From: Sulfurimonas autotrophica DSM 16294
GTDB taxonomy: Bacteria; Campylobacterota; Campylobacteria; Campylobacterales; Sulfurimonadaceae
Length of the DNA stretch: 64,000 nt
Reading direction: 5' to 3'
Assembly: GCF_000147355.1 (NCBI RefSeq)
Contig: NC_014506.1
Span: 1,364,001-1,428,000, forward strand
In this document: piece after piece, positions 2,598-10,689 of the stretch
Numbering within the stretch: the stretch's first letter is position 1
Layout: the number at the start of each line of letters is the position of its first letter
The notes under the pieces: generated by a model
The model's database searches: none
Told to the model about the DNA's origin: nothing
What the model saw: only the letters and a program-made list of their open reading frames with translations
Translations under genes and position numbers: made by a program

Positions 2598-3788
2598 ATG
2601 ACAAAAAAAATAATTTTAATCTTAATTCTCAGTATGACACTTGATGCAAATATTATAGATTTTTATAAAAAAACAGTGACTACATTACAATACAATCAAA
2701 AATATGAACTTAATACAAAAGCAAATAAACTCAATAAAAGTGGAGTTGTATACAGTAAATACGCCAACTTTTCTTTAAATGCTGACTACAGTAAGACAAA
2801 AGCCAAAAGGTTAACCAACGCCTTTGATACGACTAATGTAACTTTCAATGATACACTCGACTTATTCGATAAAAGCAGTTACAAAATTGATGCACTCACA
2901 CTTGATTTAAAATCTAAAAAATCTGTGTTAAATATACAAAAAGAACAACTATTTATATCTCTTGTAAATATGATTGCTTTATATAACAAAACATTAGAAC
3001 AACTATCTCTATACAAAGCCCTTTTTAATGAACAAGAAGATATATATGGCAAACTACAAAAGCTGCAACAAAAAGGTGCAATTACCAGTATGGACCTGTT
3101 ACGATTCAAAAATCAGCTTACTTCTCTTGAAATGACAATAATTAATCAAGAAAATGAAATTTTAAAAATGAAAAAACAGCTTAATCTTTATGCTCCAAAT
3201 CAACAAATTCCACCATTAAAAAGTTCAAAACTACTATATTCTAAAGAAGACTTTTTAAGTAGAAACCCTCAACTTAGCCTCAACAATACAGATGCACAAA
3301 AATTATTGGTACAAGCTAAAGGCTTAGAGCGCTCCTATTTACCGGATGTAACTGCAGGGGCTGCTTACCAACAACTCGGTGATCCGACATCTTATGGAAA
3401 TAATTACTCTTTCATTGTTGGTCTGCAAATACCACTCAATGCAGGTAATTTTAAAGAAGCCCAAGCTTTAAAAGTAAAGGCATTAAGTCTAAAATCTCAA
3501 AATATACAATATAAAATTCGACGAAAAAATGAATATACAACAAGATATCAAGACTATATAAATGCAGTCCAACAGCTCAAGGTTTTATATAAAAATTTGG
3601 ATGACTATGAAAAAAGTGAAAAAACCATTAAAACCGCATACTTACGACAATATGTTGATTTTAATACTTACATGCAGACTCTTTTGCAAACTTTACATGT
3701 AAAAGAGCAAATTCTTGAAATAAAATCTAAAAAAGAATTAGAAGCTACTGTATTAAATAACATTGCCTCAGGTATTATTTATGAATAA
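2598..3788 (+). CDS. TolC-family outer membrane efflux protein
   Basis: A 396-residue protein with a signal peptide (about 1-17, ending LDA) and long amphipathic helices rich in Gln, Lys and Leu (about 80-190 and 280-385), typical of the OEP/TolC alpha-barrel. The conserved PxLxLxN-type stretch and a GxxYQxLGDP region are near 220-280. It is shorter than E. coli TolC (about 470 mature residues). It is the first gene of a tolC-ATPase-HlyD-FtsX operon and overlaps the ATPase gene by 8 nt, so it is probably the dedicated outer-membrane exit duct of that exporter. Confidence 0.88.
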   Translation: MTKKIILILILSMTLDANIIDFYKKTVTTLQYNQKYELNTKANKLNKSGVVYSKYANFSLNADYSKTKAKRLTNAFDTTNVTFNDTLDLFDKSSYKIDALTLDLKSKKSVLNIQKEQLFISLVNMIALYNKTLEQLSLYKALFNEQEDIYGKLQKLQQKGAITSMDLLRFKNQLTSLEMTIINQENEILKMKKQLNLYAPNQQIPPLKSSKLLYSKEDFLSRNPQLSLNNTDAQKLLVQAKGLERSYLPDVTAGAAYQQLGDPTSYGNNYSFIVGLQIPLNAGNFKEAQALKVKALSLKSQNIQYKIRRKNEYTTRYQDYINAVQQLKVLYKNLDDYEKSEKTIKTAYLRQYVDFNTYMQTLLQTLHVKEQILEIKSKKELEATVLNNIASGIIYE

Positions 3789-4470
3789 AACTATCTTACA
3801 CTGCAAAGATATTATAAAAACATTTGGAAGCGGAGAGTCTGAAGTATTTGCATTGCGCGGAGTAACACTTGATGTATATGAAGGTGAGTTATTAATGCTT
3901 GTAGGCCCTTCAGGATGCGGAAAAACAACCTTTGTTTCTGTGATTACGGCACTGCTTAGCTTTGACAGTGGTATCTGTAATGTTTTAGGACATGATTTGA
4001 CAACTATGGATGAAGATGAAAAAGTACTCTTTCGAGGCAAATCAGTCGGTTTTGTTTTTCAGGCTTTTAATCTGCTTCCATCTCTGACAGCAGTTGAAAA
4101 TGTAGCACTGCCTTTGACTATAGCAGGAGAAAAACGAGCGATAGCTCTCCAAAAAGCAAAAGCGATGCTCGATGAAGTAGAGCTCAGTTCAAAATATGAC
4201 GTCAGACCGTCTCATTTAAGTGGCGGACAGCAACAGCGTGTTGCCATTGCCAGAGCTTTGGTTCATAACCCTGAATTTATTATTTGCGATGAACCGACAA
4301 GCAGTCTTGACCATAAATCAGGTCAGATTGTTATGGAACTGCTCAGTAAAATGACAAAAGAAAAAGGAAAAACAATGATAGTCGTAACCCATGACAATAG
4401 AATATATGAATATGGTGACAGAATGGCACATATGGAAGATGGAAAAATTATCAAGATAGAGGAAAATTAA
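3781..4470 (+). CDS. ABC transporter ATPase, LolD/MacB/DevA type
   Basis: A 229-residue nucleotide-binding subunit. Walker A GPSGCGKTT is at 42-50, the signature LSGGQQQRVAIA starts at 146, and the Walker B FIICDEP ends near 172 with SSLD after it. An upstream in-frame start (3763) exists, but the ATG at 3781 gives the normal N-terminus (MNKTILHCKDI) and an 8-nt overlap with the tolC-like gene. It should energise the FtsX-type permease encoded two genes downstream. Confidence 0.93.
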   Translation: MNKTILHCKDIIKTFGSGESEVFALRGVTLDVYEGELLMLVGPSGCGKTTFVSVITALLSFDSGICNVLGHDLTTMDEDEKVLFRGKSVGFVFQAFNLLPSLTAVENVALPLTIAGEKRAIALQKAKAMLDEVELSSKYDVRPSHLSGGQQQRVAIARALVHNPEFIICDEPTSSLDHKSGQIVMELLSKMTKEKGKTMIVVTHDNRIYEYGDRMAHMEDGKIIKIEEN

Positions 4471-4471
4471 T

Positions 4472-5362
4472 ATGAAAAGTTTTTACACACTTCTAGTTTT
4501 ATCAATTATCGGCATTATAGTCGGACTTGGGGTCATTTTTTACGATCAAAGGCCAAAAGAGTCTCAAACAGAGCCTATACCGGAGTTAAAACCGCCTTAC
4601 AAAAATTTTATTGCAGGTACTGGAATAGTTGAATCAGGAAGTAAAAATATTCAAATAGGTTCTTCTATTTCCGGTGTCATCTCCAAAGTCAATGTCGAGA
4701 GCGGAGACAATGTTAAAAAGGGAGAATTACTTTTTACTCTTAATGAAAAAAATCTCACAGCAAAAATAACAGCTTTACAGGCTGAAATTGAACTCGCAAA
4801 AACAAAGCTTCAAAAAGCACAGCATCAATTTCAAATTATTAAAAGCTTTAAAAAAGTTTCTCCGCAGATGGTAAAGAAAACAAAATACACTGCTGCAAAA
4901 GATAGTGTAACAGAGGCAGAAGCGGCCCTATCTGTTGCCAAATCAAAACTTAAAGTTTTACAAAAAGAGTTGTCTTTGTATACTGTTTACAGCCCGATAG
5001 ACGGCAAAGTTTTAGAGTCCAAGCTTAATATCGGAAAATATTTTGCTCCAAGCAGTAAATTACTTATTCTTGGTAGCAGTACACTTAATCTGCGCGTTGA
5101 TATTAACGAATACGATGTATACAAGTTTATGCCAGATACAAATGCAGTTGCTTTTGTTCGCGGACACCCAAAACTCAAAATATCGCTCAAATATCTTTAC
5201 ACTATGCCTTATGTCGTTCCTAAGAAAAACCTCACAGGTATTGCGACAGAGAGAACGGATACAAGAGTTTTACAAGTGCTTTATGCCTTGCCGAAAAAAG
5301 TAGATTTTCCTCTCTTTGTAGGGCAACAACTTGATGTATTTGTGCAAAGTAAGGACAAGTAA
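4472..5362 (+). CDS. HlyD/DevB-type periplasmic adaptor (membrane fusion) protein
   Basis: A 296-residue protein with an N-terminal membrane anchor (about 6-24), a lipoyl-like half (IQIGSSISGVISKVNVESGDNVKKG, 61-85; shown as the family pattern), a helical hairpin (about 95-165, rich in K, A, L, E) and a second lipoyl half (VYSPIDGKV, about 171-179). This is the DevB/MacA layout that bridges an inner-membrane FtsX-type permease and TolC. One base separates it from the ATPase gene, and the permease follows immediately. Confidence 0.9.
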   Translation: MKSFYTLLVLSIIGIIVGLGVIFYDQRPKESQTEPIPELKPPYKNFIAGTGIVESGSKNIQIGSSISGVISKVNVESGDNVKKGELLFTLNEKNLTAKITALQAEIELAKTKLQKAQHQFQIIKSFKKVSPQMVKKTKYTAAKDSVTEAEAALSVAKSKLKVLQKELSLYTVYSPIDGKVLESKLNIGKYFAPSSKLLILGSSTLNLRVDINEYDVYKFMPDTNAVAFVRGHPKLKISLKYLYTMPYVVPKKNLTGIATERTDTRVLQVLYALPKKVDFPLFVGQQLDVFVQSKDK

Positions 5363-7155: not shown

Positions 7156-8034
7156 ATGACAGGTGGATTTTTCGCTCTTTTTGATGATATTGCAACACTT
7201 TTGGACGATGCTGCGGTAGTGAGCAAGGTAGCTGCAAAAAAAACTACCGGTATTTTGGGTGATGATTTGGCCGTTAATGTCCAAAAAGCTTCAGGCTTTG
7301 CAGCATCTCGTGAACTTCCTGTGCTTTGGGCCATCACAAAAGGCTCGTTTAGAAACAAACTCATCATTTTGCCCGTCGCTTTTTTACTCTCTGCCTATGC
7401 TTCATGGCTCATTATTCCCATACTTATGCTTGGCGGTATTTACCTCTCGTATGAAGGCGTAGAGAAAATCTATGAATACTTCTACCCTCATCATAAAAAG
7501 CATGCCGGCGCACTCGCAGAACTCTCAGAAGAAGATTTTTTCAACATAGAAAAAGAAAAAATAAAATCCGCCATAACCACAGACTTTATACTCTCTATAG
7601 AGATTGTCATAATTGCCCTTGGAACGGTTCTGTCACAGCCTCTTTTCATTCAAATCATCGCCGTAACGGTCGTTGCCATCTTAGCAACCATCGGTGTCTA
7701 TGGTCTTGTCGCTTTGCTTGTACGCATGGATGACTTTGGTTTTGCACTCATAGAGCGTGCCGAAGATGAAAAATCACTCCTGCACAAAACAGGCAGAATC
7801 CTCGTAATCTCACTGCCAAAAGCCATCCGTGCTCTCACAGTCATAGGCACCTTCGCCATGCTCTTAGTAGCAGGAGGCATTTTCATGCATAACATCCACC
7901 AACTACACAACTATCTGCACTTTCTGCCAAACCTATTAGCCGAAGTTTTACTCGGTCTTGTTATAGGAAGCATTGCTTTTGGTGTTCATATTTTATATGT
8001 GAAGGTGTTTGGTTTAAAAAAAGATTACATGTAA
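7156..8034 (+). CDS. DUF808 / YedI-family inner-membrane protein
   Basis: A 292-residue multi-pass protein beginning MTGGFFALFDDIATLLDD, which is the hallmark start of the DUF808 (YedI) family, followed by KTTGILGDDLAVN and about six membrane helices (70-105, 145-170, 175-195, 225-250, 262-285). The function of the family is unknown. It ends in TAC ATG TAA, which is itself a copy of the TTACATGTAA repeat. The gene looks somewhat richer in G and C than the AT-rich patch that follows. Confidence 0.9.
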   Translation: MTGGFFALFDDIATLLDDAAVVSKVAAKKTTGILGDDLAVNVQKASGFAASRELPVLWAITKGSFRNKLIILPVAFLLSAYASWLIIPILMLGGIYLSYEGVEKIYEYFYPHHKKHAGALAELSEEDFFNIEKEKIKSAITTDFILSIEIVIIALGTVLSQPLFIQIIAVTVVAILATIGVYGLVALLVRMDDFGFALIERAEDEKSLLHKTGRILVISLPKAIRALTVIGTFAMLLVAGGIFMHNIHQLHNYLHFLPNLLAEVLLGLVIGSIAFGVHILYVKVFGLKKDYM

Positions 8035-8177
8035 TATTTACACCCAAAAAAACTAACATTTTCCGTGTTCATTTATTTTTTTGTATAAAATGTCTTTATG
8101 TTATAATGCTTGCAAATAAAGAGTTATAATTACACAGTAGATTTTCTCACACAAAAACTCTAAAAAAAGGATATACA

Positions 8178-9074
8178 ATAAAAAGAGGTCAAACAATCAA
8201 ACTTTATATCTATGGTGATGATTTAAAAAATATTAAAACTGCTGAGTTAAGCAATTGGAGTGGCAAAGCCTACATTGGAGAAAGAAAGCATTCAAAGCTT
8301 ATCCAAGGAATTGAAGAACTAAAATCACCAGGAGTTTATCTACTTTTATCAAGAGACATGAATGAATTTCAAATTGCCCTATATGTCGGTGAAGCTGATG
8401 AAGTTAACAAAAGAATTAGTGATCACTTTAAAAGTAAAGATTGGTGGACTGATTTTGTAATTTTTATTTCTAAAGATACAAACCTCACAAAATCACATGT
8501 AAGATATTTAGAAAAAAAACTATATAACATTTCAAATGAAAAAACTACCCTTATTGATTTAAAAAACAATTCAAATCCGACAGGTTCAAAGCTTCCAATA
8601 TCAGAAATGGATGATATGGATGAGTTTTTAGAAAAAATTATTTTTATGCTTAAAAATTTAGGAATTATCAATCTTGAAAAAATTGAAGTACAAGAAATTA
8701 GTTTAGATAAAGATAATATATTTTATTTGGATCTAACAAAAAATCGTATTGATGAAAATAATAATAAATTACAAGCAAAGCTGCAAATAACAAATGATGG
8801 CTATAGATTGTTAAAAGGATCTTTTATTGAAAAAGAAGAAAGACCAAGTTTTAAAAAACATATCTATTACCCTTTAAGAAAACAATTTGAAACCAATAAA
8901 TATATGCAGGATTCAAAATATGATGGTTGTTCTATTTTAATACAAGATATAGATGTAAGATCTCCATCTGCAGCTGCATCAATAGTAAAAAATAGAGCAA
9001 CAAATGGACCAAAGGAATGGAAACTCCAAGACGGAACCACACTTGACGAATTCCAACTTAATAGCCAATCCTAA
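8178..9074 (+). CDS. GIY-YIG nuclease with C-terminal DUF4357, apparent ATA start
   Basis: The frame encodes 298 residues from an ATA at 8178. The first residues, (I)KRGQTIKLYIYGDD, match the family opening 'M-x-RG-x-TI-x-LF'. The GIY-YIG core follows: GVY 52-54, YVG 69-71, R79, H83 and the metal-binding E112 within HVRYLEKKLY. Residues ~215-298 match DUF4357 (DGYRLLKGS, SPSAAASIV..R..NGPKEWK). The nearest ATG is at 8358, inside the GIY-YIG core, so starting there would destroy the domain. No ATG, GTG or TTG lies between the upstream stop (8127) and 8358. A ribosome-binding site (AAAAAAAGGA) ends 7 nt before the ATA. Either ATA initiates translation or the start was lost by mutation. Confidence 0.8.
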   Translation: MKRGQTIKLYIYGDDLKNIKTAELSNWSGKAYIGERKHSKLIQGIEELKSPGVYLLLSRDMNEFQIALYVGEADEVNKRISDHFKSKDWWTDFVIFISKDTNLTKSHVRYLEKKLYNISNEKTTLIDLKNNSNPTGSKLPISEMDDMDEFLEKIIFMLKNLGIINLEKIEVQEISLDKDNIFYLDLTKNRIDENNNKLQAKLQITNDGYRLLKGSFIEKEERPSFKKHIYYPLRKQFETNKYMQDSKYDGCSILIQDIDVRSPSAAASIVKNRATNGPKEWKLQDGTTLDEFQLNSQS

Positions 9075-9189
9075 CAAGATAACAAAATAAGAAAAAGTTA
9101 GCCCAACTAAATTTCCTTTGTCTTTCAATTTGGCCGTTATACATCTACATCAATTTTTCAGTAATTTTACAATTTACATATAAATATGA

Positions 9190-9195
9190 TATACT
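9190..9195 (+). promoter_or_regulatory. -10 hexamer of the toxin-antitoxin pair
   Basis: TATACT, preceded by TGA (extended -10), ends six bases before the brnT-like ATG at 9202. There is no Shine-Dalgarno sequence, so the toxin may be translated from a leaderless message. BrnA-type antitoxins normally repress this promoter. Confidence 0.5.
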
Positions 9196-9201
9196 TTCTA
9201 T

Positions 9202-9462
9202 ATGAAATACGAATATGATGAAAATAAAAGCTTATTAAATAAGCAAAAACATGGCATAGATTTTGAAGACGCTAAGCTTCTTTGGAATGATGACAGAATG
9301 GTTGAAATCGAAACATCATATGAAGATGAAATTCGTTTTATTAATATTGGAAAAATTGGAACTAGATTTTATACTATAGTTACAACTTACCGTAAAGATA
9401 AAATTAGAATTATTTCTGCAAGAAGATCACGAGAAAAGGAGATTGAAATTTATGAAAGCTGA
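9202..9462 (+). CDS. brnT: BrnT-family (DUF497) toxin
   Basis: An 86-residue protein matching BrnT RNases: the N-terminal YEYDENKSLLNKQKHGIDFE pattern (family 'W-D-x-x-K-x-x-x-N-x-x-KHG-(I/V)-x-F'), central 'R..IG..G.....V..' strands and the C-terminal IRIISARRSREKE. BrnT folds like RelE and cleaves RNA, and is neutralised by BrnA. The stop overlaps the downstream antitoxin gene by 11 nt. It lies in an AT-rich patch with the GIY-YIG gene, suggestive of an acquired module. Confidence 0.88.
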   Translation: MKYEYDENKSLLNKQKHGIDFEDAKLLWNDDRMVEIETSYEDEIRFINIGKIGTRFYTIVTTYRKDKIRIISARRSREKEIEIYES

Positions 9463-9697
9463 AGAATTTGATAAAATTTTTGATGATAATGAAGAAGATA
9501 TAATTGAATATCTTGATTTATCAAAAATAAAAAGACCTAACCTTGAACCAAAAAGAATCAATATTGATTTTCCTACTTGGATGGTGAAAAAACTAGATGA
9601 AGAAGCACAGCATATCGGTGTAAGCCGTCAAGCAATTATAAAAACATGGCTAGCTGATAAAATTATGGAACTGGAACATCACAAACTAGCTGTATAA
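9452..9697 (+). CDS. BrnA/CopG-type antitoxin
   Basis: An 81-residue ribbon-helix-helix protein. The C-terminal half, INIDFPTWMVKKLDEEA then GVSRQAIIKTWLADKI, is a CopG/RHH DNA-binding fold; the N-terminal half is acidic (DDNEEDIIEYLD) and should bind the toxin. A TTG at 9443 is in frame, but AAGGAG at 9436-9441 is well placed only for the ATG at 9452. The two genes overlap and should be translationally coupled, with the complex repressing its own promoter. Confidence 0.85.
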   Translation: MKAEEFDKIFDDNEEDIIEYLDLSKIKRPNLEPKRINIDFPTWMVKKLDEEAQHIGVSRQAIIKTWLADKIMELEHHKLAV

Positions 9698-9733
9698 TAA
9701 AATATTTTTCAAACATCATAAAAAGGAAAACAG

Positions 9734-10639
9734 ATGCAGCATTATAGAAATTTAAAAGAAGACTATCAGTTTAGTGATGAAGAGACTCAAATACTTAAAG
9801 AACTTCAACCCCGTATGGAAAAGCTTGCAGATGAATTTATAGACGGGTTTTATGATTACATATGGGGATTTGGTAAAACTGCTCAATTTTTAAAGAACAA
9901 AGATATTATTGCTCACCATAGAAAAAAAATCAAAGAGTGGTTTATTAACCTTTTTTGCGGGCAGTATGATATGCCCTATTTTATGTATCTTTACAAAATA
10001 GGTGAAATACATGTCAAAATCGGATTGCCTACACACTATGTCAATTCGGCATTTACTTATGTTCGAACTTTTATACTCACAAGTATAGAAGATAACTTCA
10101 AAGACAAACAACAGCATGTAAAAGAAATCAGAGCTGTTGAAAAAATTATAGACATGAATCTAGATGTATTGACAAGTTCTTACAGAGAAGAAGAGTTAAG
10201 TAAATTTCTATCGCTTTCCAAAGTAGAAAAAAATATTTTATCAGGTCTGAAAAAATTTAATTCTTACATAAACTATTTTTTAGCTATTGCATTAGCACTT
10301 GTGGCATTTTTTGCCATAGGACTTTTTGTATATGATGTATATATGTTAGTTGCCACCGATATAAAAATAGACAAAGGCGTATTGACCGTTCTCGGCAGTT
10401 TGCTTGTACTGTGGGCCTCTATTGAACTCATACAGGAAGAAATCCATCATTTACAGGGTAAAGGCTTTGCCATAGGTGCATTTATCATGCTCGCCATGGC
10501 TGCACTGATTCGAAAAGTATTAATATATTCGCTCTCTGCCGAAAAAGGGGAAGAATTATTAATTATAGCTGCCGTGATTGTCGGTTTGGCTGTTTCATAT
10601 TGGCTTGTCGGAGCAAAGAAGAGAACAATTATAGACTAA
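9734..10639 (+). CDS. Globin-domain protein fused to a PsiE-like membrane domain
   Basis: Residues ~5-150 form a globin of the sensor/protoglobin class: helices with DEFIDGFYDYIWG and KIGEIHVKIGLPTHYV, the latter placing a proximal heme histidine at H93. Residues ~180-298 contain four membrane helices in a PsiE-type layout (YFLAIALALVAFFAIGLFVYD; ELIQEEIHHL; GFAIGAFIMLAMAALIRKVLI; LLIIAAVIVGLAVSYWLVGA). A cytosolic heme-based gas sensor joined to a small membrane module is the simplest reading. What PsiE does is not known. A ribosome-binding site AAAAGGAAAA precedes the ATG. It could serve O2, CO or NO sensing. Confidence 0.8.
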   Translation: MQHYRNLKEDYQFSDEETQILKELQPRMEKLADEFIDGFYDYIWGFGKTAQFLKNKDIIAHHRKKIKEWFINLFCGQYDMPYFMYLYKIGEIHVKIGLPTHYVNSAFTYVRTFILTSIEDNFKDKQQHVKEIRAVEKIIDMNLDVLTSSYREEELSKFLSLSKVEKNILSGLKKFNSYINYFLAIALALVAFFAIGLFVYDVYMLVATDIKIDKGVLTVLGSLLVLWASIELIQEEIHHLQGKGFAIGAFIMLAMAALIRKVLIYSLSAEKGEELLIIAAVIVGLAVSYWLVGAKKRTIID

Positions 10640-10655
10640 AACGTCTCTTAACTGC

Positions 10656-10661
10656 TATAAT
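10656..10661 (+). promoter_or_regulatory. -10 element of the ABC-F gene
   Basis: A TATAAT in ACTGCTATAATTAC, 28 bp before the ATG at 10690, just downstream of the stop of the globin-PsiE gene. It supports the later start for the ABC-F protein. Confidence 0.45.
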
Positions 10662-10689
10662 TACAAAAACTAAAAAAAGTAAATTATTT

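Follow-up and report, generated by a model that had tools for sequence, protein, structure and literature searches.

The window, the whole stretch of 64,000 nucleotides of the Sulfurimonas autotrophica DSM 16294 genome that was analysed, contains a gene encoding a GIY-YIG/DUF4357 nuclease-like protein. The gene sits between a DUF808 gene and a gene that we take, from its sequence, to encode an ABC-F protein, and it is accompanied by a BrnT/BrnA pair and a protoglobin-PsiE fusion. The nuclease gene, the BrnT/BrnA toxin-antitoxin genes and the fusion occupy an island at positions 8035-10674. The features of the nuclease gene are collected in Table 1.

Table 1. Positions of features of the nuclease-like gene, numbered from the first letter of the window.
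Feature	Position	Strand	Remarks
Upstream in-frame TAA stop	8127..8129	+	Frame open from 8130
Shine-Dalgarno-like AAAGGA	8166..8171	+	Inside AAAAAAAGGA (8162-8171); 6 nt before ATA
ATA at the family's start-codon position	8178..8180	+	Putative AUA start; counterpart in L001 is ATT 543-545
GIY-YIG/DUF4357 nuclease-like gene	8178..9074	+	298 codons plus stop
GVY of GIY-YIG core	8331..8339	+	Lost if ATG 8358 were the start
First canonical start codon in frame, ATG	8358..8360	+	Codon 61, inside catalytic core
DUF4357 domain	8877..9044	+	Residues 234-289
CCTAACAAG across stop codon	9070..9078	+	Possible attC remnant; attC fold not found

The gene has no conventional start codon at its expected beginning. 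The frame 8130-9074(+) ends at TAA 9072-9074, and ATA 8178-8180 is in frame with it. The original prediction held that ATG, GTG and TTG are missing upstream of the ATA as far as the preceding stop and that the first ATG lies within the catalytic core, and codon reading confirmed both points: none of the three occurs among the in-frame codons between that stop and the ATA, and ATG 8358, the earliest of them anywhere in the frame, falls beyond the GVY motif (codons 52-54). This ATG is not a plausible start; a protein begun there would be missing some of the catalytic core. Read from 8178, the product has 298 residues and the N-terminus I-K-R-G-Q-T-I-K-L-Y-I, and in an alignment with L004, another member of the family, the ATA falls exactly on the ATG (I-K-R-G-Q-T-I-K versus M-E-L-G-R-T-I-K). 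The placement of the ATA at the family's start position thus stood, and the spacing given for it, 7 nt, was corrected to 6 nt between GGA and ATA. The AAAGGA is presumably complementary to the 3' end of 16S rRNA.

The family assignment is clearest for the C-terminal domain. DUF4357 (Pfam PF14267) is matched over the full domain (1-54/54) with 57.7 bits against a gathering cut-off of 38.4. GIY-YIG (Pfam PF01541) scores 21.7 bits (E 2.5e-4), just below its gathering cut-off of 22.6, and the gene is therefore filed as nuclease-like on motif evidence. Residues G52, Y54, Y69, G71, R79, H83, E112 and N130 are invariant across 13 aligned sequences including that of the window; G52 and Y54 lie within GVY, and we take GxY, YxG, R, E and N to be the core motif residues of GIY-YIG nucleases. 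The isoleucine of YIG is replaced by valine in the window copy, a conservative change at a column that is invariant in 11 other members; the window copy is the sole deviant and L001 shows no change there. A profile search against solved structures yielded no informative match (best E 0.054). The PADLOC profile PDC-S14 is matched at full length (E 3.6e-80, residues 3-294 on 23-311/320), and PDC-S14 models are matched by 13/13 aligned members. PDC-S14 is a "guilt-by-embedding" candidate that reportedly overlaps GAO_29 (PMC10855318). It is plausible from these profile matches that the window gene encodes a candidate anti-phage nuclease of PDC-S14, which may have a role in defence.

None of the island genes was found between DUF808 and ABC-F in L061-L064, the four relatives in which the flanking sequence was checked, which marks the nuclease gene as dispensable. 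A family member with 35% identity also adjoins DUF808 in another genome of the same genus (L070/L003, G014 contig 65), in the opposite orientation and with a toxin-antitoxin-like pair between them. The DUF808 neighbourhood is possibly an insertion hotspot.

Links to integrons were also examined. The CCTAACAAG across the stop codon resembles what we take to be the 5' end of an integron attC site, and the similar YTAACAA around the stop codon in 8/16 members read (L003, L004, L008, L011, L018, L019, L001 and the window) is likened to it on the same assumption. GTTAGAT occurs upstream in L004 and L001, and in G012 some 7 kb separate the homologue from an intI-type integrase. Several distant members resemble integron cassettes, and the GIY-YIG/DUF4357 family seems to be carried often in that form. 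For the window gene, DNA folding and motif search did not support an attC-bounded cassette: GTTRRRY was not found within 100 nt upstream, the region 9066-9150 folds no better than shuffled sequences (z -0.66/-0.96), and CCTAACAAG is the one element that recalls attC. An integron integrase that scores above the NCBIfam cut-off is present in the host genome (G000:C1:1146764-1147669; L056 about 3672-4688), with a short array of apparent cassettes next to it, about 225 kb from the nuclease gene. Downstream of that integron, two identical 93-aa ORFs, presumably RelE-like, lie close together (L056 11352-11633 and 12575-12856).

Exact 8-residue patterns, run against 84,980 species genomes, turned up a single close relative, L001, from a metagenome-assembled genome (MAG) labelled Sulfurospirillum, which belongs to another family of the same order. 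Whole-genome searches (149, 397, 2, 228, 398, 22 and 397 genomes, in overlapping sets) hit the genome of L001 again and gave no further close match, and none came from protein and DNA-pattern searches of viral contigs, from plasmids (55 records, all <60% identity) or from phages (2 records). L001 and the window gene share 88% protein identity and 760/897 DNA positions without indels. Where the window has ATA, L001 has ATT (543-545), preceded by an identical AAAGGA (531-536) at equal spacing. A comparison of close relatives had been proposed with the original prediction, and the only close copy thus carries a second non-ATG codon at the same place; the contrary outcome named there, an ATG in relatives combined with decay of the present copy, was sought and did not appear, as L001 has ATT and the window copy is intact. 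A single close relative is too few to polarise the ancestry of the non-ATG start.

Upstream of the start position, ungapped identity between the two copies is 10/12 at -1 to -12, a value not beyond the 45/74 at four-fold sites (binomial p 0.09), versus 12/48 at -13 to -60. Judged from this difference, the ribosome-binding stretch is kept and the leaders are otherwise unrelated or fully diverged.

Start codons were read at 17 Campylobacterota loci. Besides L001 these were 14 distant members that could be used and the broken L013 and L021, which were left uncounted. L013 is a decayed family member with several in-frame stops. Partially matching loci and plasmid and phage matches did not enter the count. 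The distant Campylobacterota members begin with ATG (11) or TTG (3), and viral-contig members begin with ATG in 15/15 cases. Pooled, 29/29 distant members have a canonical start (ATG 26, TTG 3), whereas both copies of the close pair (2/2) are non-canonical. A parallel with IF3 autoregulation through infC was rejected since the usual AUA/AUU start of infC appears to be absent in this clade; at the 11 Campylobacterota infC loci read (L033-L043) of 13 returned, the other two being partial and unread, the start is apparently TTG in 11/11, located where the preceding gene ends.

Both coding sequences are intact and constrained. The 299 codons of the window gene and L001 align without an indel or stop, differences at codon positions 1/2/3 number 30/15/92, and dN is 0.063 against a dS of 0.93 (NG86), indicating strong purifying selection. 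At the 35 amino-acid differences, compared with 11 other members, the window residue is the commoner at 14 and the L001 residue at 10, with 11 ties, so that neither copy is drifting from the family. When neutral evolution was simulated to a dS of 0.93, about 5-7% of the path left unconstrained sufficed for the observed 35 amino-acid changes, and with 10% unconstrained only 3/300 runs remained stop-free. The four-fold identity of 45/74 suggests a lower dS of ~0.55 (Jukes-Cantor, by hand); if the true dS is smaller in this way, the unconstrained bound rises to ~10%. The substitution pattern and the simulation indicate that both copies have been selected for nearly all of their separation.

It is thought likely, with a probability of roughly 0.7, that the window gene is translated at a low level from AUA 8178 and that near-cognate starts characterise the small subfamily to which it belongs. 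The gene would then probably still be translated, weakly, from a rare type of start codon. The original prediction offered three options, and the sequences favour its rare, weak ATA start over a lost start or a sequence error, given the ATT in L001 and the intact, selected ORF; the same facts make a fresh pseudogene or a sequencing error unlikely.

The strongest competitor, although an improbable one, is independent recent loss, with ATG changed to ATA here and to ATT in the host of L001, leaving two young pseudogenes that have not decayed. The canonical start of all 29 distant members examined and the location in an island missing from near relatives speak for it, and the selection measured on the pair is compatible with a very recent event. 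However, it requires two independent and very recent hits on one codon in the only two close copies, the ORF, AAAGGA and spacing are all intact in both, and at most ~5-10% of the path could have been unconstrained. A start lost in both lineages would have to be a very recent event, given an intact coding sequence under strong purifying selection.

Less probable still is a start elsewhere, at an in-frame ATG of L001, at another non-canonical codon or through a frameshift in the window, with ATA and ATT as internal codons. Both codons do encode isoleucine, and L001 has an ATG at 519, 8 codons upstream of its ATT; if this were used, the ATT of L001 would simply encode an internal Ile, and the argument from conservation would weaken. 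This ATG has no Shine-Dalgarno sequence, however, and the window lacks any in-frame upstream ATG, GTG or TTG. Every upstream ORF (uORF) opening with one of these codons in 8031-8180 stops by 8163. Moreover, the four codons that end with the start position, GGA-TAT-ACA-ATA in the window versus GGA-TGT-AAA-ATT in L001, contain two replacement changes, unlike the conserved body of the protein. A sequencing or assembly error is very improbable: the ATA is one base (A for G) away from ATG, but an independent MAG would need to carry an error at this very codon as well, and the genome is one complete contig in which the gene is otherwise free of defects.

Under initiation at AUA, the AAAGGA would position the ribosome on the AUA, which the ordinary initiator tRNA would read despite a third-base mismatch. 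Rejection of AUA-type starts through IF3 would then result in low expression, and a low output would probably be advantageous for a nuclease that may harm its own host. The L001 counterpart would likewise initiate at AUU, making the near-cognate start a subfamily trait and not a fresh lesion. A wider proposal, which we regard as tentative and rather doubtful, is that selection holds the AUA/AUU start of a mobile anti-phage nuclease subfamily non-AUG, so that in every host it enters the nuclease would stay scarce until the stringency of initiation or the level of IF3 shifts, for example during infection or stress.

Other forms of control were considered. A hairpin sequestering the Shine-Dalgarno sequence was rejected, as the RNA of the start region folds no stronger than shuffled sequences (z 0.15 and -0.32 in the window; 0.33 and -0.89 in L001). 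Translational coupling to an upstream ORF was likewise rejected because no ATG, GTG or TTG uORF in the interval examined reaches the ATA. L001 has a 10-codon uORF (509-541) that stops 1 nt before the ATT; it has no Shine-Dalgarno sequence and is not conserved. A scan for consensus promoters over 7950-9800 gave 11 sites versus 10.6 in shuffled sequences.

AUA and AUU near-cognate starts are already known for a handful of genes. Two horizontally moved, defence-type nucleases with two different near-cognate starts at the same position suggest that weakness of the start can be a selected dampener of a costly nuclease. Gene callers restricted to ATG, GTG and TTG truncate or drop such genes, and here half of the catalytic motif is lost. 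Among the open-access papers searched, judged from search listings, none was found that describes a non-ATG start in the GIY-YIG/DUF4357 family.

Several known systems can be compared with the window gene. A GIY-YIG cassette is carried by an Aeromonas chromosomal integron (PMC10609294). By its description it is an integron-carried gene with a GIY-YIG nuclease domain, whereas no attC site could be demonstrated at the window copy. The window protein resembles PDC-S14 proteins in its full-length profile match and differs from the other members examined in that ATG or TTG serves as their start; PDC-S14 too is a candidate system.

The infC and pcnB genes of E. coli have AUU starts that are sensitive to IF3. 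The window gene would resemble them in having a start of the AUU/AUA class that lowers the amount of a product that must remain scarce. It differs from infC in that the infC product autoregulates its own gene and such a loop is not evident for the window gene.

The nearest tested parallels come from Staphylococcus aureus, where Ribo-Ret mapped AUA starts for infC, ccpN and citZ and an AUU start for cvfC1 (PMC13009471). In poor medium, reporters of ccpN, citZ and cvfC1 reached ~10% of the output of their AUG counterparts, and the ccpN reporter reached up to 30% in rich medium (PMC13009471). The S. aureus starts were mapped by ribosome profiling and have extended Shine-Dalgarno motifs, whereas the window start is known from its sequence, has an ordinary 6-mer and belongs to a mobile nuclease. 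The S. aureus genes share with the window gene a near-cognate codon where the family starts and a purine-rich, normally spaced Shine-Dalgarno sequence; their starts are conserved in relatives, as that of the window gene may be. The window gene combines such a codon and Shine-Dalgarno sequence with the lack of a canonical in-frame alternative, and a non-ATG codon other than TTG stands at the start position in its 1/1 close relative (ATT) and in 0/29 distant ones.
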